Assembly: GCA_028714495.1 (NCBI GenBank)
Contig: JAQTMH010000001.1
Coordinates: 137,721 to 179,813, forward strand
Length of the DNA stretch: 42,093 nucleotides
Reading direction: 5' to 3'
Source of the DNA: Patescibacteria group bacterium
Lineage (GTDB): Bacteria; Patescibacteriota; Patescibacteriia; JAHIZJ01
Shown: in pieces, positions 8,145-37,813 of the stretch
How the letters are laid out: each line of letters opens with the position of its first letter
How positions within the stretch are numbered: the stretch's first letter is position 1
The notes under the pieces: model-generated
Seen by the model: only the letters and a program-made list of their open reading frames with translations
Told to the model about the DNA's origin: nothing
The model's database searches: none
Made by a program: the position numbers and the translations under genes

Positions 8145-9731
8145 ATGAGCCAAGAAGAACAACTTACTCCGATCCAAAAATTAATCCGCGCTTATCAGCA
8201 GCCAAATTTTGATTTTGCCACCTCTCCCGGTGAACCGTCTATCCAGGTCAGCCGGATGGCTAGTCGGATGGCTTTTGTTTATGAAAGGGTCCGTAACGCA
8301 CTCGAATATCAGGAAGTCCATCTGATCAGAAAAAACGCCATCGAGCGCATTATGAAACGCCGCTTGATCACTCGGATCAAGCCCTCCGCCCTAGCCCAGG
8401 ATTTGCTTTATGAGCTTATCCGCGGGCGCTATCTGCCAAATGGCCAAGTGCCTGAGCATAAAATTTCCGAGGTAGCCGCGATATTGAATAAATATTTTTA
8501 TCTTTTCAACCGGCTGCCGCTCTATTTGTCAGGCAAAGAAAAGCGTAAAACCTACAAATGGCTTTTGGGGATCGCGGCGGTTGAAATTGACCATTGCCTT
8601 GTCTCACCTCACCAAATTCAGGCTCTGGTTGATTTCATGTACAATACCATCCAACAAAATGTTCTCTTAGACAAAAAAATTCCGGAGCTTGATAGAAAAA
8701 TTCAAATCTACCTGGCGGTCCAGCGGGCGCTCCTTCGCTCCGACCAGCCAATTTTGCGTTATCACCTTTTCCGCTATTACAACCAGGGTTGGTTTACGGC
8801 TGACCGGGAGCTGGTGGATAATGTCGCCAAAAACATTCGAGCCATCAAAGACCAGGTTGAACATCAAGTTAGCCATCCGATCGGCGACAGCCTTTTTCGC
8901 TATTTAAAAAAATACACCATTTACTTTCATGTGATAAAGGACGTAGTGGCTGAAGATCCAATGACCGCTGAACGGCGTTTGAAAGATCAAACCGCCCTTG
9001 AGGCCAGCAGCATTGAGGCCTGCACCAAAAGATACAAGCTGGCCAGAGATAAATTGCGCCGCGGAGCGATCAGAGCGATTATCTACATCTTCCTTACAAA
9101 AATGATGCTCGCCCTAATTCTCGAAGTGCCGTACGATCTTTATCTATACAGCAAACTCAATCTCTACGGCCTGGGCGTTAATGTCATTTTTCACCCATTT
9201 TTGCTTTTCTTAATCGCTTTGACGGTCCGCATCCCGGCCAAGGAAAATACTGAGCAGGTTTTCAAGGGAATTGTCAGTATTTTAACCAACGGCGACGCCC
9301 GGGAGGTTCTAATCCGACGGGTGTTCAAAAGGCGCAAGATCCTTACCTCGATCTTCAGTTTTATCTACTCAATAACCTTCATAGTTTCTTTTAGCGCCCT
9401 TATCTATATTCTTAACCGCTTCAATTTCAACCCGCTAAGCATCGCCCTGTTTATCCTTTTCTTAACCCTGGTCAGCTTCTTCGGCATTAGAACCCGCGAA
9501 GAAGCCAAAGAATACATTGTCGTGGCTAGGAAAGAGAGCCTCTTCGGTTTCCTCATAGATTTATTCTCTATGCCGATTGTCCGGGCTGGCCGGTGGCTAA
9601 GTATCAAGGCACCAAAGATCAATGTCATTATATTTGTCTTCGACTTCATCATCGAAGCGCCGTATAAAACCATAGTAAATATTTTTGACGAACTGACAAA
9701 GTTTATCCGCGAGAAAAAAGAGGAGCTGTAA
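8145..9731 (+). CDS. Large conserved-type membrane protein, function unknown
   Basis: A 528-residue protein. Residues 1-300 are hydrophilic, basic and helix-rich, presumably cytoplasmic. Residues about 305-425 hold four membrane helices in two pairs (IIYIFLTKMMLALILEV / VIFHPFLLFLIALTV and ILTSIFSFIYSITFIVSFSALIYIL / LSIALFILFLTLVSFFGI). Another short hydrophobic segment occurs near 490. The C-terminus is charged (KFIREKKEEL). There is no SD and the composition is AT-rich. It is transcribed alone. I do not recognise a domain; the size and shape resemble large membrane proteins seen in Parcubacteria. Confidence 0.7.
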   Translation: MSQEEQLTPIQKLIRAYQQPNFDFATSPGEPSIQVSRMASRMAFVYERVRNALEYQEVHLIRKNAIERIMKRRLITRIKPSALAQDLLYELIRGRYLPNGQVPEHKISEVAAILNKYFYLFNRLPLYLSGKEKRKTYKWLLGIAAVEIDHCLVSPHQIQALVDFMYNTIQQNVLLDKKIPELDRKIQIYLAVQRALLRSDQPILRYHLFRYYNQGWFTADRELVDNVAKNIRAIKDQVEHQVSHPIGDSLFRYLKKYTIYFHVIKDVVAEDPMTAERRLKDQTALEASSIEACTKRYKLARDKLRRGAIRAIIYIFLTKMMLALILEVPYDLYLYSKLNLYGLGVNVIFHPFLLFLIALTVRIPAKENTEQVFKGIVSILTNGDAREVLIRRVFKRRKILTSIFSFIYSITFIVSFSALIYILNRFNFNPLSIALFILFLTLVSFFGIRTREEAKEYIVVARKESLFGFLIDLFSMPIVRAGRWLSIKAPKINVIIFVFDFIIEAPYKTIVNIFDELTKFIREKKEEL

Positions 9732-9904: not shown

Positions 9905-12900
9905 TCAAACGACTTCGGAGACAGTTTGAGTCAAAGAACCTCGCGGCAGGGAATTGATCCCGCCCTGGCCGCGACTTTCATGAAGGACCCAGGCATAACC
10001 GGCCAGCTGATCACGGTCAATCGGATCGCCGTCGACATAGAGCGTCTTGACGACGTCGCTCGACGAACAATGATGCAGCTGCGCTTCAGCGTATTTGGAC
10101 ACCATACAGCCCTGTGGACCAACCGCGATTCCCCCGTCTAAGAGTTCAGCGATGGTTAGCGCGGCTTCGCCTTCGGGCGCGTCAGTGAAGTAGGGTCTAG
10201 CCTTCTCAATCAGTGGTTCGATCCTGGTGTGTGTCTCCCGATTCAAGGCCTCGGCAACCGGCTTGTCCAAACTCCAGAATATCCACCACTGCAGAAAAGC
10301 CTTGATCCTGACTTTCCAGGGATTGAACTGCTTCCGTTTGTGGCCATGTCCCTGGGTCCAGGTAAGATACTGGATCCAAGTACTGACCCTGGAGCGATGA
10401 ACACGTACGTTATGATCCGCTAGAATCCTGACTACGCCGCCGTTAACATAGGAGTCCCGTACCACATAGATTTCCCCGGCTAGGTTTGTGGCTACGACAG
10501 TGCGGCTCCGTTCCGGGTCTAGCTTGATCTTCTGAAATTCCTGGATTGCGCGCCGAATGAACTTCTCCAGACCCCAAACCTGGAAAAAGTCCCAAGCTTG
10601 CGCCCACGAAGTTTTGGCCGGTGACCGGCGCAGATATTCCACTGCCCAGCCCATGACTCGCTGATGGATTCTATCAACCTGATCAGGATCACGAGCGATA
10701 GGCAAAAAGTAGCACCACAATTCATCCAGCAGATCAGCCAGCATTACTCCGGCACAACCCTTCAACCGCAGGTGGCTTCCGAAGACGCCGTCATAGCCGC
10801 TGTCCGAAGACGTAGCAAACATATGAACGGTTCTCTTAGGATCCAGCGCCTCAAGGATGATACCGTGCTGGGTGCGATAAGACCCGAATCGACAAGGACC
10901 AGTAGTCCCCGGCATGAACCAGTAAATGTGCTCCAGTTCCGGATGCCGAGGAACAAGGTTTTTCAGCACATACTCCATGGCTCCGGTAACACTGATGTAC
11001 GGTACGCACTCTTTTCCGGTAGCATACTGGCGGCCCAAACGCAGGATTTCCTCGTTCGTAACCGGACCGGGTATCGACCTGATGCCGGCTGACTCGAAAA
11101 TACTGGCCAGGATCGGCTCAAGATTGCCAAACTGACACAGTACTATGGCTGATTTTTCATCACCCGGTTTGAAGACCGGGCCGGCGTCATGCATCTGCAA
11201 GGCTTTCAGATTCTGGATCGGCTCGCGCCTGTCTCCATCCCTGAGATGCCTCTGCATGGCATAAACGCTTGACTGGATGCGCGTGGTAAATCCGCCCATG
11301 CCCGTATGCCCATCAGTTTCGATGATACAGTAGGGCACATCGGCCAGATATTTCAGCCAATGCTCAGTGAAGCTGTCCGGTCCGCACGAATAGCAGGTGA
11401 GCATCAGGGGATATACGCCAGGCCGATTATGGAGATCAACCACCGCCCGTAGAATCCTCTGAACTTCACCCCAGTATACCAGATCAAGGAAAGCGGTATC
11501 GTCCTGGGTCGGATAGCAATCAACTGGAATAGCCACTACTCCGCAACTCTGGATGATCTGGGGGATCTGCCCGTTGATCGCCGGGGAATGAATGGCATAG
11601 AGACGGCCAAGTACTACAACAGCTGGGATCTTTTGTTCTGCCGCGTAGCGCAGAGCGCGTTCTCCAATCGCTAGACATTCTCGCTGGAAATCAAGCTGGG
11701 CTTGGATGGCAGATCTAAAGGCTGCTTGGCATTCTCCCTTGGTCTTGCCGACCTTCCGGCCCATTCTGATAAAAGCCTGTTCCAGTTGTCTGTCTTCAGT
11801 CCAGTTCAGACCGAATTTCAGGACTGGAGCCAAAACCTTTATCTTCTCGGGCCCATGTTGATTCACTCCGTTAATGGCGGCGTCAACCATTTGAGGCGTT
11901 CCCTGAACCAGCGGGCAGGTGCTGCCGATGTCTCTTTGATTCAGTCTGGGAAGGATAACCAGCTTGGGAAAACAGAGAAAATCGATCCTCTGCTCGACAG
12001 CTTCAGCCGCCAAACCATGGGCTAGCTTAACCGGCGCGCAGAGATCTTTACCAGTGCAGGTGTCCTCCCCTCTCAAAAGCGTACCAGCGCCAGCTTCGAT
12101 CACTCTCACGTTCAAGCCGAGCGAGGACCAGTAAAACGTGAGCAATGGTCCGAACCTGACATCGCCTAACGCCATCGGGACAGCCACAGTCGGCTGGCCC
12201 TGTATTCTCGTTGGCAATTGACTCGCCAGCCTCCGCCAAAGAGCTTGACGCTCATGGAAAGGCTTGGGCGCGTCTGTCGGCAGTTTGTCTCCGGCGGCGG
12301 CGCCTTCATGCAACGGGCACATCCCGCCGGACTTAACTCGAACAATCTCATGGCCAACCCGGATCTGGGCAGTTTCAATCTTGCAGCCCGCGCCACAATC
12401 TCGGCTTCCGCAGGCAAAGTGCGCGCGCTCGACCACTTCAACTTCAAGAAACCGCCGAAGATCAAAAGACTGATCCAAGACGATTCCCTCTCGACAGGCT
12501 TGGTCTCGCTCCAGCAAGGCAATACCGACAGCACCAGTCGCTCCAGGCCGCGGAGGCACAATTACTTCCCGGCCCGTGACAGCGGCGATAGCCAAAGGTA
12601 AAGCGATATTGTTGGCTGGCATGCCCAGGACAAAGATCTTGCGTTCCAAACCCATCTGCCCAACCAGACGATTGAGCCAGTTGAGCGCGATAAACCAGTA
12701 TCGGCCGGCCGCGGCGTCACACACGGTCCATCCTTCACTCAGCGCGCGATCGATTGTGTCGGTCGAGAAAACCGTACAAGTCTGGCCAATGTCAACCGGA
12801 TGAGTGGATCGAAGCGCCCACCGACCGAATTCCTGAACATTCGTGCCGAATCTCAACGCGTCATATCCTGCTTCAGCACCAGTGCCGGCGGAACATGCCC

Positions 12901-14260
12901 TGTTCATGTCTGCTGCGATTATCCGGCCACGGCGCAGCTTGATCACTTTGGCATCTTGTCCCCCCAGTTCGCAGACCGTCAGAGAGTCAGCTTCATCCGG
13001 GTCATAGTGACGAGCCCCCTCGGCATGAGCGATGATCTCAGTCTGAACCAGCATACGATCAAGCTGATCTCCAAAACACGCCCGGGCCACGCTGTAAACC
13101 GCCTGCCTGCCTGAACCCGTAAACCCCAGACCAACTATCACAGCCCGGCTACCTACGACCTCAAGCATGCGTCTGACAATCTCCTGAGCCGCCGCAACCG
13201 GATTGCTGTTTGTCGGGATATAGTCGTCCCATACCCGGCAACCCGTTGTCACGTCAACTAAGGCGCCTTTGGTTCCAGTCGAGCCGGAATCAATACCCAA
13301 GACAACCCGTCCTCCCGGCCAAGAAGCAAGAGCAAACTCCGGTTCCGTCATCTGATGCACCAGGTGACGGAAATCATTCAGCGGCGGGAAAGTATTGATT
13401 GTCCGCTCACGTTGGCTGATAACCTGATCTGGATCAGCGGAATAGGCCAGCGATAGGCCGCGCGATTCTGCAATGTCACTCGCGATCAAAGCCGCGCCAT
13501 GGGCTTCGAAATAGTCGGAATCCGGACGAATCTCAAGTTCGCGGCCGATCAGATTCTGTAGAGAATCCATGACCAGCCGGTTTTTGCTGACTCCTCCGAT
13601 CACGACGACTCGTCCATCCACGCAGTGCTTGCGAAAAAGCGCATAAATCAATCCGGCAATTCCGGATAGATAACCTCGCAGAACCCAGTCCTTCGGTTTG
13701 CCTTCATTGACCAAATGCGTGACTTCAGTCTGCGCGAACGCGGAACACCGGGAATGGACTGGAATCTCTCCGTCCGCCAGCTCAGCCGCCGCAAGCGCGG
13801 ATTCCAAATCCGCATATCCGGCGCGGGCGCACAGTTTTGTGATCGCGTCGCCAGTTCCGGCCGAACACCTTTCCGTAGGCGAATGTCGATACCGCCCCTC
13901 CTTATCACGAGCCATCACGGCATAACCACCGGCGCTGATTCGGATGACGTTCAGGGAACTCGGGTCCTGGTAGAAATGTCCACAGGCTCTTTCCAAGGCA
14001 GCATTTCTGGGAATATCCGACAAAGCCGGTTTTCCCATAACATGTCTGAGGCTTCCGGTCACTACTACCATGCCCAGACGCGGGTGATCCAACCGAGACC
14101 AAATTCGACTGACTGCTTCTCTCGGGTTCCGCTGGTGGGACTCGAATAGTTTCATCACTAACGACCAGCCCGAACCATTGGATTCCAAGACAATTGCGGC
14201 CACGGTGGTCTTACCCACCTTAAGGCCGACCACTTGATCGCCGTGGGTAAGACTCTTCAT
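9905..14260 (-). CDS. Giant acyl-CoA dehydratase activase-like protein (BcrAD/BadFG + DUF2229)
   Basis: The start at 14260 (MKSLTHGDQVVGLKVG) is chosen because GCGGAGG lies 6 nt upstream; the product is 1451 residues. Residues about 5-285 and 320-590 are two BcrAD/BadFG ASKHA ATPase domains. The first has a weaker P-loop-like start (GLKVGKTTVAAIVL) and ERCSAGTG. The second has the canonical GIDSGSTGTKGALVD and NRACSAGTG, whose Cys holds a [4Fe-4S] cluster in HgdC-type activators. A Cys-rich stretch follows near 615 (CGSRDCGAGCK), then a DUF2229/2-hydroxyacyl-CoA dehydratase-related part with many Cys (TCTGKDLCAPVKLAHG, LTCYSCGPDSF, GKECVPYIS). In the family, ATP hydrolysis drives low-potential electron transfer to a dehydratase. 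No HgdA/HgdB-like gene is in the window, so the substrate is unknown. Own promoter and terminator. Confidence 0.88.
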   Translation of the reverse strand: MKSLTHGDQVVGLKVGKTTVAAIVLESNGSGWSLVMKLFESHQRNPREAVSRIWSRLDHPRLGMVVVTGSLRHVMGKPALSDIPRNAALERACGHFYQDPSSLNVIRISAGGYAVMARDKEGRYRHSPTERCSAGTGDAITKLCARAGYADLESALAAAELADGEIPVHSRCSAFAQTEVTHLVNEGKPKDWVLRGYLSGIAGLIYALFRKHCVDGRVVVIGGVSKNRLVMDSLQNLIGRELEIRPDSDYFEAHGAALIASDIAESRGLSLAYSADPDQVISQRERTINTFPPLNDFRHLVHQMTEPEFALASWPGGRVVLGIDSGSTGTKGALVDVTTGCRVWDDYIPTNSNPVAAAQEIVRRMLEVVGSRAVIVGLGFTGSGRQAVYSVARACFGDQLDRMLVQTEIIAHAEGARHYDPDEADSLTVCELGGQDAKVIKLRRGRIIAADMNRACSAGTGAEAGYDALRFGTNVQEFGRWALRSTHPVDIGQTCTVFSTDTIDRALSEGWTVCDAAAGRYWFIALNWLNRLVGQMGLERKIFVLGMPANNIALPLAIAAVTGREVIVPPRPGATGAVGIALLERDQACREGIVLDQSFDLRRFLEVEVVERAHFACGSRDCGAGCKIETAQIRVGHEIVRVKSGGMCPLHEGAAAGDKLPTDAPKPFHERQALWRRLASQLPTRIQGQPTVAVPMALGDVRFGPLLTFYWSSLGLNVRVIEAGAGTLLRGEDTCTGKDLCAPVKLAHGLAAEAVEQRIDFLCFPKLVILPRLNQRDIGSTCPLVQGTPQMVDAAINGVNQHGPEKIKVLAPVLKFGLNWTEDRQLEQAFIRMGRKVGKTKGECQAAFRSAIQAQLDFQRECLAIGERALRYAAEQKIPAVVVLGRLYAIHSPAINGQIPQIIQSCGVVAIPVDCYPTQDDTAFLDLVYWGEVQRILRAVVDLHNRPGVYPLMLTCYSCGPDSFTEHWLKYLADVPYCIIETDGHTGMGGFTTRIQSSVYAMQRHLRDGDRREPIQNLKALQMHDAGPVFKPGDEKSAIVLCQFGNLEPILASIFESAGIRSIPGPVTNEEILRLGRQYATGKECVPYISVTGAMEYVLKNLVPRHPELEHIYWFMPGTTGPCRFGSYRTQHGIILEALDPKRTVHMFATSSDSGYDGVFGSHLRLKGCAGVMLADLLDELWCYFLPIARDPDQVDRIHQRVMGWAVEYLRRSPAKTSWAQAWDFFQVWGLEKFIRRAIQEFQKIKLDPERSRTVVATNLAGEIYVVRDSYVNGGVVRILADHNVRVHRSRVSTWIQYLTWTQGHGHKRKQFNPWKVRIKAFLQWWIFWSLDKPVAEALNRETHTRIEPLIEKARPYFTDAPEGEAALTIAELLDGGIAVGPQGCMVSKYAEAQLHHCSSSDVVKTLYVDGDPIDRDQLAGYAWVLHESRGQGGINSLPRGSLTQTVSEVV

Positions 14261-14319
14261 CACATACCTCCGCATTTATTGGTTTTTTCGACTTATTGAC
14301 TGATGTCAATGAACAACAA

Positions 14320-14334
14320 GCTCCGGTTTGGAGC
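14320..14334 (-). promoter_or_regulatory. 5'-terminal stem-loop of the activase mRNA
   Basis: GCTCC / GGAGC around a 5-nt loop, 1-2 nt inside the predicted transcript start (about 14336). Confidence 0.45.
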
Positions 14335-14342
14335 TATCTAAC

Positions 14343-14371
14343 TTTTTACCAGTATTTCATCGCCTTGTCAA
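14343..14371 (-). promoter_or_regulatory. Minus-strand promoter of the activase gene
   Basis: On the minus strand TTGACA (14371-14366), 17-bp spacer ending TGG, TAAAAA (14348-14343). Confidence 0.7.
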
Positions 14372-14474
14372 AAGTAAAAAGTGCTTAAACGGTTAAGGAA
14401 TATAAAATACTCCGTAGCCCGAAATCTTTGTTTTGGGCGAACATTAAAATGCCAACGGTGGGTATAAATACGAT

Positions 14475-14587
14475 ACCCCGCCCCTATCCCAGTAATGCCC
14501 CAGGTATTTCATGGACGTAAGGCAAAGCCGCCTAGCGGCTATGCTTTTATTATTACGACAGACATCATTAGGATAGGGGCGGGGTTA
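14475..14587. repeat. 113-bp element bounded by about 20-bp inverted repeats
   Basis: ACCCCGCCCCTATCC (14475-14489) is complementary to GGATAGGGGCGGGGT (14571-14585), and TAATG/CATTA extends the stem after 3 unpaired bases. The interior has another hairpin (AGCCGC-CTA-GCGGCT). It may be a small non-autonomous mobile or structural element. The whole gene-free spacer 14261-14898 holds this element, the dispersed repeats, a promoter and terminators. Confidence 0.5.
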
Positions 14588-14603
14588 TTTGCAGTGGCTT
14601 CGA
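14585..14603 (+). repeat. Dispersed repeat, copy 3 (end fragment)
   Basis: TTATTTGCAGTGGCTTCGA, identical to the inverse of 853-871. Confidence 0.6.
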
Positions 14604-14663
14604 TAAAAAAACTCCTTAAACCACCATATACAAGAAATCAATATACTTGAGTGGTTAATTAGC

Positions 14664-14783
14664 GTTTATCCGCCTACGGCCGTTGTCTAATATCTCTTTC
14701 TCTATTTCATAATCCAAACATTTCTATTTCCAGATAGGTTATCCAGGTGGTCCTTCGGCGGATTATTTGCTTTGGCTTCGACG
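14664..14783 (+). repeat. Dispersed repeat, copy 2
   Basis: Begins with GCGTTTATCCGCCT and ends with GGATTATTTGCTTTGGCTTCGA, in the same order as the inverse of copy 1 (853-985). The middle, including the palindrome, is replaced. Confidence 0.5.
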
Positions 14784-14840
14784 ATGTAGTTACTGAAGAA
14801 TCATCTTCCGCTCATTACTTTTGTTGGTTCTACGCAAATA

Positions 14841-14873
14841 AAAAAACGGCTTGAGCGCATGGCCCAAGCCGGA
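14841..14873 (-). terminator. Minus-strand terminator of the GAPDH gene
   Basis: On the minus strand CGGCTTG / CAAGCCG around an 11-nt loop, then seven T. Confidence 0.85.
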
Positions 14874-14898: not shown

Positions 14899-16002
14899 CT
14901 AGACAGGATCGCCGAAGTGGTATCGATCCACCAGCGAACTCATCCGCTGCTTCCAGTCCTCAGGATTGAGGAACCGAGCAGTAGCCGCCACTGAAGTCAG
15001 CAGGGAATTTCCGTCCTGCGGAGTGAAGCAGAAGCCAACGATGTGGTTGCCCACGACTGAGATGGTCTTGACCGCGACCACAGTCTGGTCGAGAATCCGG
15101 CCATTGAATCCGCAGTCACGCGCTTCGGAGAAGATCTGTTCCGCAGTCATGCGCTGGGTGATCGCCACATACGGCCGGCTGGCGAAGGCGTCGACGACCT
15201 GCTGGGCCGTCGGCGGATTGTCAACCCGGATGTTGAACCGAATCACGTGCATGTACTGGGTCGGGACCTGGAGCGACGAAGAGAAGAGCGGCAAATCAAG
15301 GCCAAGCGTCTGATAGACCCGCCAGGCATCCTTGGCGTGGTGCGTGCCGAAACGCTCATCCTTGTGACCGTCCACCTTCGGTGAGGCAATCATCTCAGCC
15401 TGGCTGATGTCCGTGCACCGGCGGATCGCCACGAAGTCGCCGTCCAAGATCTTGAGGCCCATCCCCTTGATGACATCCACGATGACCGAAAGGTTGTGGG
15501 TGTTGCAGGAGACGATCTGAAGCTTCTGGACTCCGTTGGTCGGCTCTTCATTGATGCCCAGGGCAAACGGCATACCGAAGCCCTCTTCCGAACCTTGGGC
15601 GAAGAAACCGCGCACACGGTCTTGAACCGGTTCGTACCATGCCTCGCCTTCCGTCACAACCTTCCTGCCCGTTGCCTTGTCCTTCCTGACATACTTGCCG
15701 TTCATGTGACCCAGTCCAGCTGGCGTGCAGTCTGCCACCACGTCAGCCCACTGGAGGGCTTCGGGTCGAGTCATGCTCGGATTCAATCCCCAGCCCCTGA
15801 ACGCATCGACGGTTGACTCCTCGGTCACCAACTGAACTGCCCCGCGGGAAAGCATCCGTTTGACAGCGCCGACAGTCGTCTCCTGCGGACTGTTCTTGTG
15901 CACTGCCAAACCAGTGATGCCCAGCGGTTCACTCCACTTCTCGAGCAATCCCAGAAGCGGTCGGCCGATCGTACCAGTACCTACGACGAGGACATTTCCC
16001 AT
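14899..16002 (-). CDS. gap: Type II (archaeal-type) glyceraldehyde-3-phosphate dehydrogenase
   Basis: The start at 16002 is set by the SD AAGGAGG about 10 nt upstream; the product is 367 residues. Residues 3-13 are the Rossmann nucleotide-binding motif (VLVVGTGTIGRP). ADVVADCTPAGLG matches the archaeal DATPGG(V)G segment. Cys166 in IVSCNTHNLS is the catalytic cysteine (archaeal SCNTTGL). THHAKDAW matches the archaeal HHGPD segment, and VPTQYMHV with SVVGNHIVGF match late conserved blocks. In the family it converts glyceraldehyde-3-phosphate to 1,3-bisphosphoglycerate using NAD(P)+. The canonical bacterial type I motif (ASCTTNC) is absent. Own promoter and terminator, SD class. It may be this organism's glycolytic enzyme or an addition to a type I enzyme elsewhere. 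Confidence 0.87.
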   Translation of the reverse strand: MGNVLVVGTGTIGRPLLGLLEKWSEPLGITGLAVHKNSPQETTVGAVKRMLSRGAVQLVTEESTVDAFRGWGLNPSMTRPEALQWADVVADCTPAGLGHMNGKYVRKDKATGRKVVTEGEAWYEPVQDRVRGFFAQGSEEGFGMPFALGINEEPTNGVQKLQIVSCNTHNLSVIVDVIKGMGLKILDGDFVAIRRCTDISQAEMIASPKVDGHKDERFGTHHAKDAWRVYQTLGLDLPLFSSSLQVPTQYMHVIRFNIRVDNPPTAQQVVDAFASRPYVAITQRMTAEQIFSEARDCGFNGRILDQTVVAVKTISVVGNHIVGFCFTPQDGNSLLTSVAATARFLNPEDWKQRMSSLVDRYHFGDPV

Positions 16003-16082
16003 ACTCCTGACCTCCTTGTTGCGTTGTGTATCAACGCGATTTCTGGACCCCGAACCCATGCCTTCATATTGAAAAGAACGAA

Positions 16083-26045: not shown

Positions 26046-26639
26046 ATGACCAAGCCAAGGCTTTTCCTTCACGCCTGCTGCGCGCCCTGCGCCTGCTACC
26101 CAGTTGAATTGCTTAGAGGTGAATACGACATCACCCTGTTTTTTTATAATCCTAACATTTATCCTGAAGAGGAATTCAATAAACGCTTAGAGGAAATCAA
26201 GCTTTTCTGCAGGCGAACTTGGCCAAGTTCGCCTACGAATCATTTGATTGTCGGTGAATACGACAGCCGACACTGGTTTGAGCTTGTAAAAGGACTCGAA
26301 AATGAACCCGAGCGCGGCCGGCGGTGTGACATCTGCTATGAAATGCGCCTGCGGAAAACCGCCCAGCAGGCTAAAGCCGAAAGTTATGATTATTTTGGAA
26401 CTGATCTAAGCATCAGCCCGCACAAAAAAGCTGATAAAATCAATGAGCTTGGCCGACAGCTTGAAAAAGAGTTTAGTATCAAATACTTCGAAGCTGATTT
26501 TAAAAAGAAAGACGGATTCAAAAAGAGTCTGGAAATCAGCCACCAACATAATTTCTACCGTCAGAATTACTGCGGCTGCGTGTTCTCGAGAGCGGGGCGG
26601 GAGGTAAAGAAGTGTCAGCACACCACGACTATTTCTTGA
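26046..26639 (+). CDS. queH: Epoxyqueuosine reductase QueH
   Basis: A 197-residue protein with the QueH (DUF208) signature cysteines in order: LHACCAPC (residues 9-15), RRCDICYEMR in the middle and FYRQNYCGC near the end. In the family these bind an iron-sulfur cluster and a second metal. The reaction is reduction of epoxyqueuosine to queuosine at the wobble base of certain tRNAs, the last step of the pathway; QueH is an alternative to cobalamin-dependent QueG. queA, the step before it, lies 0.8 kb downstream, separated by one orphan cassette. Leaderless, no SD. The promoter of the next gene overlaps its stop codon. Confidence 0.93.
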   Translation: MTKPRLFLHACCAPCACYPVELLRGEYDITLFFYNPNIYPEEEFNKRLEEIKLFCRRTWPSSPTNHLIVGEYDSRHWFELVKGLENEPERGRRCDICYEMRLRKTAQQAKAESYDYFGTDLSISPHKKADKINELGRQLEKEFSIKYFEADFKKKDGFKKSLEISHQHNFYRQNYCGCVFSRAGREVKKCQHTTTIS

Positions 26640-26684
26640 CAAAACTGGCCGCAATGCTAGTATTAGAATGTTCTTGAGAAGAAC
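26636..26684 (+). promoter_or_regulatory. Promoter and 5'-terminal stem-loop of the 26740 gene
   Basis: TTGACA (26636-26641, overlapping the queH stop), 16-bp spacer, TAGTAT (26658-26663). The stem-loop GTTCTT-GAG-AAGAAC (26670-26684) begins at the predicted transcript start. Confidence 0.65.
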
Positions 26685-26739
26685 GAACGGGGGTCGAATG
26701 ACGCTCGTTTATTTGGTAACTCGAGCAGAGGAGGTCTGG

Positions 26740-27354
26740 ATGTCGAAACCATGGCCGATGCATATTTCGCTTGTCGGTGGAGAGTACCTTGAGGGCATGG
26801 AGGAGATCGTCAGCGGGATTATTACCGCCTGTGGCAGAAGAAACAACTCGGTCATCTTCCATTACTACTCCGGCAGAAACGAACGAAGACTAGGGGAAGC
26901 AGTAGAGCAGATTGATCCGCATGATCTAGAAAGGCTTCACCTCCTGGTTCGTGAGCAACTGCCGGAAGGCCTTCACCGTGGAGCTGGTCCGGAAGACTGG
27001 GGGAATCTATTCGGCCGGCTGGCATATACACACGGAATCATCATTTTAGCCGGAATGAGCTGTGAGTTACTGAGTCTTTTCTTCTTTGCGCTCTCGACGC
27101 ACGCGAACAATGACCTGCTTCCGGGAAACCGGCTGCCGCTCCGAATCGCCTATCTGGTTCCGGAAGGATGCGACCCGACGATCTTGTCGAGTTGGGATGG
27201 ATTCCTTCTGAAATTCCTGGCCATAGAAAACAAACCGTTCTGTTTCCGCCCTTTCCTCCTGAAGGTCACCAATGCCGAAGATGCTGTTAACTGGGCACTG
27301 GAAGGAAGACGCCCGGCTGTACCAACCAAGGAAGTATCAGCCGCCTGCCATTGA
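26740..27354 (+). CDS. Hypothetical protein, possible divergent LOG/SLOG-type Rossmann fold
   Basis: The start ATG 26740 is set by the SD GAGGAGG; in-frame ATGs at 26668 and 26698 are less likely, the first being at the transcript start. Of 204 residues, the order of elements recalls LOG proteins: an N-terminal ISLVGGEYLEGMEEIVSGII, a central hydrophobic strand HGIIILAGMSCELLSLFFF where LOG enzymes have P-G-G-x-G-T-x-x-E, and a late VTNAEDAVNWAL. The PGGxGT nucleotide-binding motif is absent, so it would be a degenerate member if related. This is a weak assignment. GC-rich, SD class, own promoter and terminator, placed between queH and queA. Confidence 0.65.
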   Translation: MSKPWPMHISLVGGEYLEGMEEIVSGIITACGRRNNSVIFHYYSGRNERRLGEAVEQIDPHDLERLHLLVREQLPEGLHRGAGPEDWGNLFGRLAYTHGIIILAGMSCELLSLFFFALSTHANNDLLPGNRLPLRIAYLVPEGCDPTILSSWDGFLLKFLAIENKPFCFRPFLLKVTNAEDAVNWALEGRRPAVPTKEVSAACH

Positions 27355-27365
27355 ACCTCATCCTT

Positions 27366-27420
27366 GCTCCCGCGGACCATCATTACTCTGGTTATGGCGT
27401 CCTCGGGAGCATCTTTTTTT
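27366..27420 (+). terminator. Intrinsic terminator
   Basis: GCTCCCG (27366-27372) / CGGGAGC (27404-27410) with an inner GGAC/GTCC pair; T-run 27413-27420. Confidence 0.8.
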
Positions 27421-27456
27421 ATATTGACAACAACCAGAAAAACTTAAGTTAGTATA

Positions 27457-27465
27457 TGGTACAAT
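27457..27465 (+). promoter_or_regulatory. Extended -10 promoter giving a leaderless queA start
   Basis: TGG-TACAAT (27457-27465), 6 nt before ATG 27472. No good -35 at 17 bp; a TTGACA at 27424-27429 is too far away. Confidence 0.5.
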
Positions 27466-27471
27466 ATAATT

Positions 27472-28557
27472 ATGAAATTATCCCTGTTTAATTATTACCT
27501 ACCTAAAGATTTCATTGCCCAGAAACCTGTCCGGCCGCGCGACCATTCGCGGCTTTTGGTATTAAACCGCCAAACCGGGAAAATCGAGCATCGCCATTTT
27601 TACAATATCGCGGAATATTTAAAACCCGGCGACGTGCTTGTTCTCAATAATTCAAAGGTGTTTCCGGCCCGGTTAATCGGCCGAAAACCAACCGGTGGGA
27701 AAATCGAAGTGTTTTTGTTGCACCAAGAGAATTCAAACACATGGTCGTGCCTCCTGGGCGGAAAAGGCCGGCGGGTGGGGTTACATATTACCGTAGGCGA
27801 AAATGGCCATTCTCGCCTCCAAGAAAATTTCGAAAGCGGGCAAACGTTTGCCCGCCTGCGTGGTACGATAACCAAACATCTTCCCGACGGCACTTGGCAC
27901 ATTCGTTTCAACCACTCCGGCCAAAAACTCCAATCTCTAATTAACCGACTTGGCCAGGCCCCCACCCCGCCTTATATCAAACGCGCCTCAAATTTAACCG
28001 AGTACCAGACAGTCTACGCCCAAAAAACTGGGTCTGTCGCCGCTCCGACCGCCGGTTTTCATTTTACGAAAAACCTTCTTAACCTTTTAGTTAAAAGGTT
28101 AACGATTGAATATATCACCCTCCATGTCGGCTACGGAACGTTTCAACCGGTAAAATCGACCGAAATTGAAAAACACAAAATGCACCCGGAATTTATTGAA
28201 GTGGACAAGGCAACTCATCAACGGCTGCTTCAAGCTAAAAAATCTGGCCGGCGGATTATCGCGGTCGGCACCACCAGTGTGCGAGCACTGGAAAGTCTAT
28301 CTCAAATCCCCCAATCAACAAACAAACCTCAGCCAAAGACTGATCCGCCTCGGGCGGAAATCAACCTTTTTATTTATCCCGGTTACAAATTCAAAATGGT
28401 TGATGCGATGATAACTAACTTTCACCTGCCCAAATCAACTCTCTTGATGCTTGTCTCGGCTTTTGCCGGCCGTACAAAAATTCTAAAGGCATATAAAACA
28501 GCGATAAGAAATAAATACCGGTTTTACTCTTTTGGGGATTCGATGTTGATATCATGA
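27472..28557 (+). CDS. queA: S-adenosylmethionine:tRNA ribosyltransferase-isomerase QueA
   Basis: A 361-residue protein, normal length. Typical blocks in order: YYLPKDFIAQKPVRPRDHSR at the N-terminus, LKPGDVLVLNNSKVFPARLIG, LGQAPTPPYIKR, the TVYAQKTGSVAAPTAGFHFT block, LHVGYGTFQPV, and the C-terminal TNFHLPKSTLLMLVSAFAG with SFGDSMLI. It transfers the ribosyl part of SAM to preQ1 in tRNA to make epoxyqueuosine, the substrate of QueH. The catalytic family is well defined. Leaderless, no SD. An AACCTTTTAGTTAAAAGGTT palindrome lies inside the gene at 28082-28101. The spacer downstream carries a relic of another queA end. Confidence 0.96.
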   Translation: MKLSLFNYYLPKDFIAQKPVRPRDHSRLLVLNRQTGKIEHRHFYNIAEYLKPGDVLVLNNSKVFPARLIGRKPTGGKIEVFLLHQENSNTWSCLLGGKGRRVGLHITVGENGHSRLQENFESGQTFARLRGTITKHLPDGTWHIRFNHSGQKLQSLINRLGQAPTPPYIKRASNLTEYQTVYAQKTGSVAAPTAGFHFTKNLLNLLVKRLTIEYITLHVGYGTFQPVKSTEIEKHKMHPEFIEVDKATHQRLLQAKKSGRRIIAVGTTSVRALESLSQIPQSTNKPQPKTDPPRAEINLFIYPGYKFKMVDAMITNFHLPKSTLLMLVSAFAGRTKILKAYKTAIRNKYRFYSFGDSMLIS

Positions 28558-32559: not shown

Positions 32560-33981
32560 ATGAGCCTAACCCGGCAAATCGCCCACAATACTATTTTCCA
32601 GCTCGTCGGGAAAATTATCTCTACCTTTCTCGGAATTATTGTAATTGGGCTGCTGACGCGTTATCTTGGCGCTGAAAAATACGGATACTATTCTACCGTG
32701 ATAGCCTTCCTCCAAATTTTTGCCGTCTTGCTCGATCTGGGGCTCTATATCATCTTGATCAAAAAAATTTCCGAGCCAAACGCCCAGACTGATCATCTGG
32801 TCAATAATATTTTTACCCTGAGATTTTTTTCAGCCATTATCTTTCTGGGTTTAGCCCCGCTGGCTTCCCTGGCCTTCCCTTATCCGACAATCGTTAAAAT
32901 CGGCATTGCCCTAGCTTCGCTGTCCTATCTTTTTGTTTCGTTAAACCAGGTTTTAACCGGCTTGTTTCAGAAAAATTTAAAAATGAATAAAGTCGCCCTG
33001 GCTGAAGTTCTGGGTCGAATCGTACTGCTTGGAGCGACGGCTTTGGTGCTTTTTTTCAAACTTGGGCTGCTGTCAGTGCTGGTGGCTGTGATTCTGGGAA
33101 GTTTTGTCAATTTTCTTTATGTCTTTATGGCGGCCCGGCGTTTTGTCAAAATCCGCTTTGTCTTTCATATGCCAACCTGGCGGAATATTCTAGCCGAAGC
33201 CTGGCCGATTGGCCTTTCCGTGGCCTTTAATCTGATCTATTTCAAAGGCGATACGGTCATCCTTTCGCTGTACCAGCCAGCCGCGGATGTCGGTATTTAT
33301 GGAGCGACTTATAAGGTTTTGGAGATACTGATTACTCTGCCGGCCATGTTTGCCGGCCTGGTTATGCCCTTATTAACCACGGCCTTTGCTCTGGGTGACA
33401 CGCTTCGCTTTCAAAAGCTCATTCAAAGAAGCGTCAACTTCCTTATCTTAATGTCTCTACCGCTGATTGTGGGCGTTCAATTCGTGGCCAAGCCCCTGAT
33501 GCTTCTAATCGCCGGCAATGAGTTTGCCGCCGCCGGCAATGTTTTAAGAATACTGGTGGTGGCCACCGGAATTATTTTTGTCGGAAGCCTTTTTGGAAAC
33601 GCCGTCGTTTCAGTTAATAAGCAAAAGTCGATGATCTGGGTCTATTTCTTGGTCGCCGCCATTTCGTTAACCGGCTATTTAATTCTGATTCCGCGATACA
33701 GTTATTATGGAGCGGCCGCCATCACCGTTTTATCAGAATTCCTGATCATGCTGGGAAGCGCCTTGATGGTTCGCCAGGCCATACGCTTCCGTTTCGAACT
33801 TACCGGACCGATTCGAATTCTCCTGGCCACTCTAGCCATGGCTTCCTGCCTCTGGTTATTCAGAGAATTCCACTGGCTGGTGCTCATCCTAGTCGGATTT
33901 ATCAGCTACTCTTTGTTCCTGGTGCTTTTCAAGGGAATAAGCAGGGCTGAGATAAAAGAAATTTTGAGTTTGCGCGGATGA
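32560..33981 (+). CDS. Polysaccharide flippase (Wzx/MATE-like)
   Basis: A 473-residue protein with about 12-14 membrane helices along its length. The N-terminus (RQIAHNTIFQLVGKIISTFLGIIVIGLLTRYLGAEKYGYYS) is the typical start of the polysaccharide_synt family: amphipathic helix, then a long helix ending in RYLG...YG. It moves lipid-linked oligosaccharide units across the membrane. No SD, leader about 14 nt. Its stop overlaps the start of the glycosyltransferase (ATGA), making it the first of four co-transcribed genes for a surface polysaccharide or glycosylation system. Confidence 0.9.
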   Translation: MSLTRQIAHNTIFQLVGKIISTFLGIIVIGLLTRYLGAEKYGYYSTVIAFLQIFAVLLDLGLYIILIKKISEPNAQTDHLVNNIFTLRFFSAIIFLGLAPLASLAFPYPTIVKIGIALASLSYLFVSLNQVLTGLFQKNLKMNKVALAEVLGRIVLLGATALVLFFKLGLLSVLVAVILGSFVNFLYVFMAARRFVKIRFVFHMPTWRNILAEAWPIGLSVAFNLIYFKGDTVILSLYQPAADVGIYGATYKVLEILITLPAMFAGLVMPLLTTAFALGDTLRFQKLIQRSVNFLILMSLPLIVGVQFVAKPLMLLIAGNEFAAAGNVLRILVVATGIIFVGSLFGNAVVSVNKQKSMIWVYFLVAAISLTGYLILIPRYSYYGAAAITVLSEFLIMLGSALMVRQAIRFRFELTGPIRILLATLAMASCLWLFREFHWLVLILVGFISYSLFLVLFKGISRAEIKEILSLRG

Positions 33982-35105
33982 AAAAAATCCTGATTTTAAA
34001 ATTTCCCTACCGATCAAGCTTCGGCGGCGGCGAAAGCCACACCCTGACGCTGGTGGAAGAATTATCCAAAATGGGATATCAATTCCGGCTGATTTCCTCA
34101 TGCCGCGTGCTCCTCGCCGAGTTCAAAAAACGCGACTGGCCAGCCAAGAAAATCTGGGCTTTGCCCGAACCGGTCGCCAAATGGTCGCTGCTCGTATTTC
34201 CTTTTTTAGCCATACCTATGTTTCTGTATCTTTCTCTGATTCTTTTAATCCAGAGGTTCAGAGGCGTGCGGGCAATCTACTGCCTGTCTTTGACGGAAAA
34301 AATACTGGCCACGTTGCCGGCTCGACTTTTTGGCCTGAAAGTTTTCTGGATGGAACACGTGGGCTTCCGGCGCTGGCTGACTTTAAACCCGCTTCGTATT
34401 TTTTACCGACTTTTTTCCAGGCTGGCCACCGTGGTTGTAATCTCCCAGGCGCTACAGCAGCAACTCCGCTGGCTGGGATTGAAGGAAAAAAATATCAAGG
34501 TGATTTACAATGGTTTTGACTTTTTACGCTTCCAGAAATTGAGGCTGGCCGAACGAATCCAGGATGAGAATCACTTCATCGTCGGCACAGTCTGCCGCTT
34601 GGAAAAGGAAAAGGGATTGGAATTTCTGCTGCTGGCCGCTCAAAAAGCCAAAACCATAATCCCAAATCTGAAGCTGATCATCGTGGGCGACGGCCGGGAG
34701 CGAAAACGCCTCGAGTGGCTGGCCCGCAATCTTGAAATAACCAATTGGACACAGTTTGTCGGCTGGCAGAAAGACGCGGCCCAATGGATTAAGGATTTCG
34801 ATATCTTCGTTCTGCCGTCGGTTGGCCGGGAATCGTTCGGCAATGTCCTGGTCGAAGCCCTGGCGCTAGAGCGGCCGATAATTACTTCCGCCCTCGAGGG
34901 CACTCCGGAAATTGTCCAATCAATGCAAACCGGGATCCTGGTCGAACCGGGAAAATCGGAAGAATTGGCCCAGGCGATAATCTATCTGGCGCAAAACCCG
35001 GCCCTGGCCAGGCAACTGGCCGAAAACGGCCGCGTCTTTGTGGAAAAAAACTTTCCCAAGGAAAAAATGATCCACGATTTCTTTCAACTTTTTGCCACTA
35101 TCTAG
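33978..35105 (+). CDS. Glycosyltransferase, family 4 (GT-B fold)
   Basis: A 375-residue protein. The N-terminal domain begins with KILILKFPYRSSFGGGESHTLTLVEEL, the usual first strand and Gly-rich loop. A hydrophobic patch at 68-90 suggests membrane association. The C-terminal domain carries the family 4 blocks FIVGTVCRLEKEKGLEFLLLAA, LIIVGDGRERKRLE, FVLPSVGRESFGNVLVEALALERPII (the E-x7-E region) and EGTPEIV. It transfers a sugar from a nucleotide donor to a lipid-linked glycan at the cytoplasmic face. Overlaps the flippase by 4 nt; the next gene starts directly after its stop. Confidence 0.92.
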   Translation: MKKILILKFPYRSSFGGGESHTLTLVEELSKMGYQFRLISSCRVLLAEFKKRDWPAKKIWALPEPVAKWSLLVFPFLAIPMFLYLSLILLIQRFRGVRAIYCLSLTEKILATLPARLFGLKVFWMEHVGFRRWLTLNPLRIFYRLFSRLATVVVISQALQQQLRWLGLKEKNIKVIYNGFDFLRFQKLRLAERIQDENHFIVGTVCRLEKEKGLEFLLLAAQKAKTIIPNLKLIIVGDGRERKRLEWLARNLEITNWTQFVGWQKDAAQWIKDFDIFVLPSVGRESFGNVLVEALALERPIITSALEGTPEIVQSMQTGILVEPGKSEELAQAIIYLAQNPALARQLAENGRVFVEKNFPKEKMIHDFFQLFATI

Positions 35106-36536
35106 ATGGATTTGATTCTCAAACAACTGAATCGCAAAACCCTGGTCTGGCTCAGCCTATTGTTCTTGATATTGGCTGTCGGCCTGGGCTTTTTTACCAG
35201 CCGGTTTGATTTGGTAATGGTCCTGGGCTTGCTTGTTACCGTTATAATTTTCCTCGTGGTTTACCGCTCGCCGTTTTTTGGTTTGCTGGCTGTCACTTTC
35301 TTTTTGCCGTTTGAACGGATCGGCTCATACGACATATCCAGCATAACCATCAGGGCCAGCCAGCTTGTCACCTTGGTCTTGATTATAGCTTGGCTGATAA
35401 AGGGGATCATCAACCGCGATTTGAAATTTACGAAAAATCCCCTGCTTTGGCCTTCGCTCGCCTTTCTCTCAGTCAATCTCATGGCCATCACCAACGCGCT
35501 TAACCTCGAACGATCAATCCTGGTTCTCGCTTTTACTATCTTTACCATGGCCTTTGGCTATATTATCCCGCAAATAGTCACCGACGAAAAAAAACTGAGG
35601 AAATTGATCTCCATATTATTGGTAACGACATCGCTTGTCTGTCTTTTCGGCCTCTGGCAATTTTTCGGCGACATGATCGGCCTGCCCGCAACTTTGACTG
35701 GTCTGCGCGAACATTACACCAAGAGTGTTTTCGGCTTCCCGCGAATTCAATCCACCGCTCTTGAGCCTCTCTATTTTGCCAATTTTCTGCTCTTGCCCCT
35801 GGCCCTGGTCTACGCTTTTTTAGTCAGCCGTTCAAGCAGCCTGAAACTTGTCCGCCTCATGCCTCTTTTTATCCTCATTGGTTTAAACATGGTCTTGACC
35901 GTGTCGCGCGGCGGCTATCTCGGCACTTTGGTAATCATCTTAGCTTTAAGCCTTTTCTACTTTAAAAAAGTCTTTCGTTGGAAATTTATTGTTCCCGTGG
36001 TCATCGGCCTGGTCGTGGTCGGATTTCTTGCTGCCTGGGCTCTGGGTTTCGGCGATATTTTCCAATTGAACGTTGACACCTTTGTCACTCACGTAAGCGA
36101 AGCCTTTTCCGGACCAGCCTATTTCGAGCGGATTGAAACCTTTGAGTGGGCTAAGCAGGCCTGGCTGGATTCGCCCTGGATCGGCATCGGTCCAGGCCAA
36201 TACGGCCCTTATGTCGCGGCCCACCCCTTCCTGGAACCGACCGAAGGCTGGAAAATCGTCAATAACGAATTCATCGAGCTCCTGGCCGAAACCGGAATTC
36301 TGGGCCTGGCCGCCTTTTTGCTGATTTTAATACTCCTGGTTGTCCGCTCGATTAAAGCCTTGGTCCGCGCTTCGAATTCCTATTTGAAAGCCGTAATGGC
36401 CGCGCTCCTGGCTGCCTTGTTCGGCGTGATCGCCCAATACCAGACCTTTTCCATCCTCTATATCATGCACGTCTGGTTTTTAATCGGCCTGATCCTGGCC
36501 GTGCAAAATCTAATTCTTGTCCCCAGAAAACCATGA
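35106..36536 (+). CDS. O-antigen ligase/polymerase-type membrane protein, first copy
   Basis: A 476-residue protein with about 11-12 membrane helices. Between helices near residues 335-400 is the large outer loop typical of the Wzy_C (O-antigen ligase) family: FERIETFEWAKQAWLDSPWIGIGPGQYG...NNEFIELLAETGILGL, including the H/N-x-x-x-E-L...G..G motif in the form NNEFIELLAETG. It polymerises glycan units or transfers a finished glycan to an acceptor outside the membrane. The ATG follows the upstream stop without a gap. Its stop overlaps the next gene (ATGA). Confidence 0.87.
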   Translation: MDLILKQLNRKTLVWLSLLFLILAVGLGFFTSRFDLVMVLGLLVTVIIFLVVYRSPFFGLLAVTFFLPFERIGSYDISSITIRASQLVTLVLIIAWLIKGIINRDLKFTKNPLLWPSLAFLSVNLMAITNALNLERSILVLAFTIFTMAFGYIIPQIVTDEKKLRKLISILLVTTSLVCLFGLWQFFGDMIGLPATLTGLREHYTKSVFGFPRIQSTALEPLYFANFLLLPLALVYAFLVSRSSSLKLVRLMPLFILIGLNMVLTVSRGGYLGTLVIILALSLFYFKKVFRWKFIVPVVIGLVVVGFLAAWALGFGDIFQLNVDTFVTHVSEAFSGPAYFERIETFEWAKQAWLDSPWIGIGPGQYGPYVAAHPFLEPTEGWKIVNNEFIELLAETGILGLAAFLLILILLVVRSIKALVRASNSYLKAVMAALLAALFGVIAQYQTFSILYIMHVWFLIGLILAVQNLILVPRKP

Positions 36537-37813
36537 TTTGGTATATTTTATCCCTTTGCCTTTTCTTTCTGCTCGCCTTGCTGAAAACTAAAATGGCGGC
36601 CTATTTGCTGGCCCTGCTACTGCCCACCTACCTCCTTCGTTTTTCCATCGCCGGATATCCCACAACAATTCTCGAAGGAATGATTCTGGTTTTAGTCGGA
36701 GTATTTCTGGTAAAAAGCCTGGCCCTGGGAAATTTTCGGAAAATCAAAATACCCTGGAAATGGCTTTTGCTTCTTTTGCTGGCCGCGGCCACTACCTCAA
36801 TCTTCGTTTCTTCTGAAACCCGCTCAGCCCTCGGCCTCTGGAAAGCCTATTTTATCGAACCGATCCTGCTTTTCATCGTCTTGGTAAATCTCTTGGAGAC
36901 ACCCCGAGACCGTCGCCGGCTGGTTTATAGCCTGGGGCTTTCGGCAATAATTATTTCGTTGGTCAGCCTGGCTCAATATTTCGGATTTTTATCCAGTCCC
37001 GAACCCTGGATAAAAGAAACACCCAAGCGGGTTACTTCGGTCTTCGATTATCCGAACGCGGTCGGGCTGTTCCTGACCCCGATCATCGGGCTGTTCCTCG
37101 GCTTCCTGACTCTGCGCAACCATAAATTCAATCATCTTTTTTCAGCCCTGGTCATTGTCACCGGTCTGGCCGCCCTCTTCTTTTCCTACACCCGGGGCGC
37201 CGCCCTGGGCTTGGCCGCGGCTTTGGTTTTTCTGGCTTTCTTCAGCCAGAGGAAAAATTGGGTTTGGCTGGCGCTTGTCCTATTCGCCGCCACCCTGATA
37301 ATTCTGCCAGCTGGCCGTCATTTGGTCAGCTCGGTTTTAACTGTCTCTGATGTTTCAACCGATGTCCGAGTGGTTTTGTGGCAAGGCACCTGGAATCTTT
37401 TGAAAGCCCATCCGATTTTAGGCGCTGGTTTGGCTGGTTTTCCCGCGCTTTATGACCAGTACCGCCTGATTAAACATACCGAGCTGGTGCTCTATCCCCA
37501 CAATATCTTCCTGAATTTCTGGGTGGAAATCGGTCTGGCCGGTCTAATCGCAATTTTAATTATTCTAGCCGCGTATTATTGGACTGGTTTTCGCAACCGA
37601 GCCAGGAATATAAATCCGGTCTTATCAATCGGCCTGCTTTCAGCCATGACTGCTTTAATCGTCTATGGCCTGGTCGAAGCTCCCTATTTCAAAAACGACC
37701 TCGCCACCCAATTCTGGATCCTCTGCGCTTTGCTGGTCGGCGCAAAAGCCAACCGACTGGAAAATACCGTCAGCCCCGAGACCGCGGCCAGGCTGAAGAA
37801 GTCGAGGGTGTAA
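36533..37813 (+). CDS. O-antigen ligase/polymerase-type membrane protein, second copy
   Basis: A 426-residue protein with about 11-12 membrane helices. The outer loop has VRVVLWQGTWNLLKAHPILGAGLAGFPALYDQYR and the family motif PHNIFLNFWVEIGLAGL (H-N-x6-E-x-G). It is clearly related to the gene before it but not a recent duplicate. A common division of work is that one copy polymerises and the other ligates to lipid or protein; which does which cannot be told. Last gene of the operon. Its 3' end carries a short repeat found again at 38930. Confidence 0.87.
   Translation: MIWYILSLCLFFLLALLKTKMAAYLLALLLPTYLLRFSIAGYPTTILEGMILVLVGVFLVKSLALGNFRKIKIPWKWLLLLLLAAATTSIFVSSETRSALGLWKAYFIEPILLFIVLVNLLETPRDRRRLVYSLGLSAIIISLVSLAQYFGFLSSPEPWIKETPKRVTSVFDYPNAVGLFLTPIIGLFLGFLTLRNHKFNHLFSALVIVTGLAALFFSYTRGAALGLAAALVFLAFFSQRKNWVWLALVLFAATLIILPAGRHLVSSVLTVSDVSTDVRVVLWQGTWNLLKAHPILGAGLAGFPALYDQYRLIKHTELVLYPHNIFLNFWVEIGLAGLIAILIILAAYYWTGFRNRARNINPVLSIGLLSAMTALIVYGLVEAPYFKNDLATQFWILCALLVGAKANRLENTVSPETAARLKKSRV

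Follow-up and report, generated by a model that had tools for sequence, protein, structure and literature searches.

A 42,093-nucleotide stretch of DNA from a Patescibacteria group bacterium (assembly GCA_028714495.1, contig JAQTMH010000001.1, positions 137,721 to 179,813 of the forward strand), here called the window, carries a giant gene on its reverse strand. The product is probably a glycerolipid ester reductase of the PlsA/Ger family that works as a single chain and depends on ATP, a reading that we put at roughly two chances in three from sequence comparison. PlsA and Ger reduce an ester bond of a diacyl phospholipid to a vinyl or alkyl ether (PMC12838417, PMC11150832, PMC13274423, PMC11604127) and have been assigned to the benzoyl-CoA reductase/2-hydroxyacyl-CoA dehydratase (BCR/HAD) family (PMC12838417). 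PlsA genes of four species give rise to plasmalogens in E. coli (PMC12838417), and Ger of T. maritima and D. alkenivorans produces alkyl ethers in the same host (PMC11150832, PMC13274423, PMC11604127). Ger combines two PF01869 domains with reduction domains in about 1,450 residues, or 150–160 kDa (PMC13274423, PMC11150832, PMC12838417). The giant gene thus encodes an enzyme of a familiar type where none was expected, and its distribution among small-genome bacteria is patchy.

Domain layout and the built-in partner

An initial annotation of the window described a double activase fused to DUF2229 and to a dehydratase-related C-terminus, and this layout is confirmed. Pfam places BcrAD_BadFG twice (E 5e-45) and DUF2229 once (E 1e-39) in the protein, and profile comparison relates the C-terminal modules, Red1 and Red2, to HGD-D proteins with probabilities of 93 and 94%. 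The two modules are also homologous to each other (97.5%) and match split COG3580-like and COG3581-like proteins at 100 and 99.9%, while the controls, a reversed HGD-D profile and six unrelated families, all stayed below 4%. Residues are numbered from the ATG at 14275, so that positions in the likely protein are lower by 5. The third cluster cysteine of YjiM aligns with C964 of Red1 and with C1390 of Red2, and that of the solved double-cubane cluster protein (DCCP) likewise with C1390. In the solved BzdO the active-site [4Fe-4S] cluster is bound by Cys95, Cys128 and Cys380 (PMC11971306), and residues 1090, 1128 and 1390 of the giant protein have the same spacing pattern. Since both modules are homologous to HGD-D with matching cluster cysteines, the protein contains an HgdA/B-like pair of its own.

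The lack of a dehydratase partner had been presented as a peculiarity of this gene. The absence itself is real and extends beyond the neighbourhood: genome-wide, no HGD-D (HgdA/B) protein was found, no BcrAD_BadFG domain occurs beyond the two in the giant protein, and a search for a dehydratase operon, named beforehand as a refuting observation, found none. What does not stand is the anomaly. By its profile matches the missing partner is the C-terminal half, with its two HgdA/B-like modules, and the fused, usually stand-alone layout is standard across a large and widespread bacterial family. Among 380 genomes of the phylum, the HGD-D-like matches at the examined loci are all split relatives of the giant protein, and the majority score under the cut-off of the family.

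These homologies could alternatively describe a one-chain BCR/HAD member acting on a soluble CoA ester, either as a dehydratase or as an enoyl- or aryl-CoA reductase. Such an enzyme would use the same activator and HgdA/B-like modules, the database names of relatives are acyl-CoA dehydratase activase or 2-hydroxyacyl-CoA dehydratase, and the giant protein itself bears the former as its domain-level NCBIfam name. However, the full-length architecture and the cysteine set fit PlsA/Ger and not HAD/BCR, HAD/BCR enzymes are made of separate subunits encoded in operons whereas this is an orphan gene, and bona fide HgdA/B proteins were not found at the examined loci of the phylum sample. A CoA-ester enzyme is therefore considered unlikely.

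The cysteines carry much of the comparison with PlsA and Ger. Alignments of 64–76 long homologues drawn from many phyla were used, and exactly 14 cysteines (137, 177, 461, 500, 622, 627, 631, 653, 746, 787, 964, 1090, 1128 and 1390) are invariant in the 76. All 14 are found in PlsA-type proteins of Listeria, Collinsella, Acetoanaerobium and Haliovirga and in the Ger-type homologues of Thermotogae and Desulfatibacillum, close relatives of the tested Ger proteins through which the comparison with Ger was made. The four in the insert between the activation and reduction parts may form a further [4Fe-4S] or Zn site. The GIDSGSTGTK and GGQDAK of activation domain 2 correspond to GLKVGKT and SAGGY in domain 1, where the Asp of GIDxGST is replaced; as an ATPase, domain 1 is probably weak or inactive. 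Domain 2 is the likely ATPase because domain 1 is without the canonical motifs. Red2 contains a basic, aromatic helix at residues 1319–1343. An amphipathic membrane helix was considered at this position and set aside for its low hydrophobic moment, the basic and aromatic character being merely suggestive.

The cysteine count also bears on a reading as a reductive activator of some other protein or cofactor, or as a double-cubane reductase of small molecules. The BCR/HAD relatives do include DCCP/YjiM and related ATP-driven activation machines. Nevertheless, a double cubane requires six cysteines per subunit and each module here has three invariant ones, which rules out a double-cubane active site, and no partner protein is conserved nearby (none across 80 loci). 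This reading is very unlikely.

For the ester reductase, the mechanism that agrees best with the sequence is the one the initial annotation had suggested, an ATP-driven, low-potential electron transfer onto the protein's own C-terminal half. The cluster types, electron path, lipid substrate and product that we infer would be connected as follows. The two activation domains would form an internal pseudo-dimer holding one [4Fe-4S] cluster through Cys137, 177, 461 and 500. Reduced ferredoxin would deliver electrons to this shared cluster, and ATP hydrolysis, mainly in domain 2, would send them on, at very low potential, to the C-terminal half. In that half the acyl ester of a membrane phospholipid would accept electrons from Red1 (746/787/964) and Red2 (1090/1128/1390), each with one three-cysteine [4Fe-4S] site, and form a ketyl-type radical, which could proceed to an alkyl ether as with Ger or, by loss of water, to a vinyl ether as with PlsA. 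The genome encodes a 2-oxoacid:ferredoxin oxidoreductase (L167 2347–4955) and a 63-residue ferredoxin (L168 2287–2478), so that an electron supply is available. FeS assembly of the NifU_N/IscU type is present in the genome; SufBD is absent from it.

Position in the family

Three clades are resolved in the tree: PlsA-type proteins, Ger, and a third clade that is sister to Ger and contains the window protein together with proteins of Myxococcota, Verrucomicrobiota, Acidobacteriota, Actinomycetota, Chloroflexota and Thermodesulfobacteriota. The phylogeny against Clostridia that the initial annotation had proposed places the nearest relatives outside Clostridia, and the trees rule out a clostridial origin.

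The protein could also be PlsA proper, a plasmalogen synthase forming vinyl ethers, instead of a Ger that forms alkyl ethers. Both belong to the same family, and sequence alone cannot distinguish alkyl from vinyl products or PlsA from Ger (PMC11868695, PMC13274423). At the 68 alignment columns that separate PlsA from Ger the window protein is PlsA-like in 12, Ger-like in 28 and neither in 28. In the tree, however, it clusters with Ger and apart from the PlsA-type proteins, and its Red2 motifs KECVP, GPCRFG and GPQGCM are closer to Ger than to the PlsA-type NDACYP, GGCRATN and QPFACLP. A PlsA in the strict sense is quite unlikely.

Several points weigh against an ester reductase of the PlsA/Ger family. 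We know of no assayed member of the third clade, and identity to the sampled PlsA and Ger proteins is low, about 23–30%. There is no adjacent lipid gene at the window locus, nor is one consistently found in relatives. Structure prediction, as proposed in the initial annotation, was informative for one half of the protein. The AlphaFold models of the two halves are confident (mean predicted local distance difference test scores, pLDDT, of 89.6 and 88.2), and in Foldseek the N-terminal half matches activases of the HgdC/HadI, BcrAD and DCCP-R types. The C-terminal model returned no HAD/BCR structure and no informative match, so that the assignment of this half rests on sequence profiles and the order of secondary-structure elements. 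Finally, no ether lipid was formed in E. coli by D. alkenivorans Ger2, a close paralogue of Ger, perhaps owing to its expression (PMC11150832). Regarding plasmalogens in the candidate phyla radiation (CPR), nothing relevant was found in a literature search mostly limited to openly accessible journals.

The locus, its lineage and its relatives

The open reading frame spans 9905–14275 (-) and is intact, giving 1456 residues from the upstream ATG. The in-frame ATG at 14260 is the likelier start, because GGAGG lies 6 nt before it and the orthologue begins at the equivalent residue; the single gene at 9905–14260 of the initial annotation is upheld by both observations. As far as the sequence indicates, the gene forms a separate transcription unit, as had been supposed, because a terminator (14871–14847, -) stands behind the GAPDH-like gene upstream. 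The 0.6 kb 5′ of the giant gene (14276–14846, -) has unusually strong secondary structure (z -4.4), in which the arms of a long GC-rich inverted repeat enclose a nested hairpin. This region shows no conservation in the sister genus, and a search for an RNA regulator there gave no Rfam match. Features are collected in Table 1.

Table 1. Features of the giant gene and its surroundings in the window
Feature	Position	Strand	Remarks
Downstream convergent neighbour, 528-aa membrane protein	8145..9731	+	no Pfam match; kept in three genera
Giant PlsA/Ger-type gene (putative)	9905..14260	-	1451 aa; in-frame ATG at 14275 less likely
Reduction module Red2	9968..11170	-	COG3581-like, HgdA/B-related; residues about 1036–1436; Cys1090, 1128, 1390
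Reduction module Red1	11186..12208	-	DUF2229/COG3580-like, HgdA/B-related; residues about 690–1030; Cys746, 787, 964
Four-Cys insert	12296..12439	-	Cys622, 627, 631, 653, all invariant
Activation domain 2	12506..13312	-	residues about 322–590; canonical GIDSGSTGTK, GGQDAK; Cys461, Cys500
Activation domain 1	13376..14236	-	residues about 14–300; Cys137, Cys177
Ribosome-binding site GGAGG	14267..14271	-	6 nt before ATG 14260; read directly
Intrinsic terminator (strong) closing upstream gene	14847..14871	-	separates upstream gene from giant gene
Upstream neighbour, divergent archaeal-type (type II) GAPDH-like protein	14899..16059	-	adjoins giant gene in second genus too

The genome comprises 1,165,373 bases (1.165 Mb) in 6 contigs and is 98.9% complete, in keeping with the reduced genome supposed earlier, and the giant gene lies inside a 344-kb contig. 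In a second genus of the same family (G002) a full-length orthologue, 68% identical, stands between the same two neighbours. In a third genus (G001) both neighbours are present with only 136 bp between them, a natural empty site. From this synteny and the empty site it follows that the gene belongs to the lineage, which either acquired it before the genera diverged or lost it a single time. They also bear on the possibility of assembly contamination or a decayed gene, the former having been raised in the initial annotation as an observation that would overturn its reading. The distribution is patchy, and the GC content of the gene is 55% against 41–52% for most other window genes. Yet the GAPDH-like neighbour is similar in GC, the syntenic orthologue, the empty site and the long contig all speak for a resident gene, and the frame and the 14 cysteines are intact in both the window protein and the G002 orthologue. 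At the level of these assemblies contamination is refuted by the synteny and the empty site in related genera, and contamination and decay together retain hardly any probability.

The GAPDH-like gene is kept in three genera of the family (window 14899–16059; L018 1556–2635; the end of G001 contig 70). No archaeal-type GAPDH-like gene was seen in the other sampled genomes of the class, and a normal GAPDH is encoded elsewhere in the same genome. A functional tie between this neighbour and the giant gene was considered and found weak, as a terminator lies between them and one genus has the GAPDH-like gene but lacks the giant one. The membrane protein on the other side is about 70–75% identical across three genera.

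Matches to the giant protein occur in 5 of 192 near genomes and 13 of 380 genomes of the phylum, and DUF2229 in 8 of 381 genomes of the class; the genome sizes, 0.5–1.4 Mb, are compatible with the CPR affiliation suggested in the initial annotation without proving it. Viral copies of the gene were searched for and none was found. Split three-gene versions exist in other families, some inside a dnaK operon or between gyrase genes. For instance, in another family of the same class (L021 12885–15969; L022 7958–10942) split COG3580-like, COG3581-like and activase genes lie in a heat-shock operon, with dnaK on one side and a DUF3467-like gene and dnaJ on the other. Similarly, in one family of the phylum (L128, L130, L131) the three genes adjoin or sit between gyrA and gyrB. 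Another genome of the class has a very divergent relative of 1585 residues (L020 7441–12198, -), whose branch in the tree exceeds 4 changes per column. A metagenome-assembled genome (MAG) of Rhodospirillaceae carries two full-length giant genes in tandem (L039 9854–18559), which perhaps serve sn-1 and sn-2, or two products.

Two further groups of genes were noted in the window. A polysaccharide flippase, a glycosyltransferase and two genes of the Wzy_C O-antigen-ligase type follow one another at 32560–37813 (+), and QueH and QueA, for the last steps of queuosine synthesis, lie near each other at 26046–28557 (+).

Significance and comparison with known systems

The occurrence of a Ger/PlsA-type enzyme in about 2–3% of the sampled phylum genomes points to lipid remodelling in small-genome organisms that are commonly assumed to obtain their lipids from others. 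It is tentatively proposed, at somewhat less than even odds, that a small-genome, CPR-like bacterium remodels its own or its host's phospholipids to ether lipids through a single third-clade reductase that is ATP-driven and self-contained. If so, such lineages would be bacterial makers of ether lipids and possibly unseen contributors to ether-lipid biomarkers. Bacterial ether lipids matter for the "lipid divide" and for climate proxies based on branched glycerol dialkyl glycerol tetraethers (brGDGT), the producers of which are a matter of continuing debate. A survey of the Black Sea reported Ger homologues from many phyla and Mss from 3 of 428 Patescibacteria MAGs (PMC11868695). The third clade is useful for asking why some of these enzymes yield alkyl ethers and others vinyl ethers. 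The database name acyl-CoA dehydratase activase is misleading, as it hides a complete putative lipid reductase.

Among known systems, Ger (Thermotoga maritima Tmari_0479; Desulfatibacillum alkenivorans SHJ90043) has the same single chain of about 1,450 residues with two PF01869 domains, DUF2229 and two reduction modules. The Ger-type homologues of Thermotogae and Desulfatibacillum share the 14 cysteines and similar Red2 motifs and form the sister clade. The window protein differs from Ger in its identity of about 23–30%, its separate clade, its 1.17-Mb genome and a domain 1 without the usual Asp. PlsA and PlsA-PlsR (Clostridium perfringens, Enterococcus faecalis EF1327, Listeria, Lactococcus cremoris) are related single-chain or split systems, encoded by one gene in facultative anaerobes and by two, PlsA-PlsR, in C. 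perfringens. The single-gene PlsA of Listeria and Collinsella has the same domain order and cysteine set as the window protein, but differs in clade and motifs, with about 23% identity. The BCR/HAD enzymes (HgdC/HadI with HgdAB/HadBC, and class I benzoyl-CoA reductases) share the activator fold, the cluster cysteines and the three-cysteine [4Fe-4S] modules; they consist of separate subunits and work on CoA esters, whereas the window protein has four units fused and no known CoA role. DCCP, or YjiM with YjiL, has the HGD-D fold and a third cluster cysteine that aligns with the window protein, but its double cubane is held by six cysteines, in contrast to the three invariant ones in each module of the giant protein.

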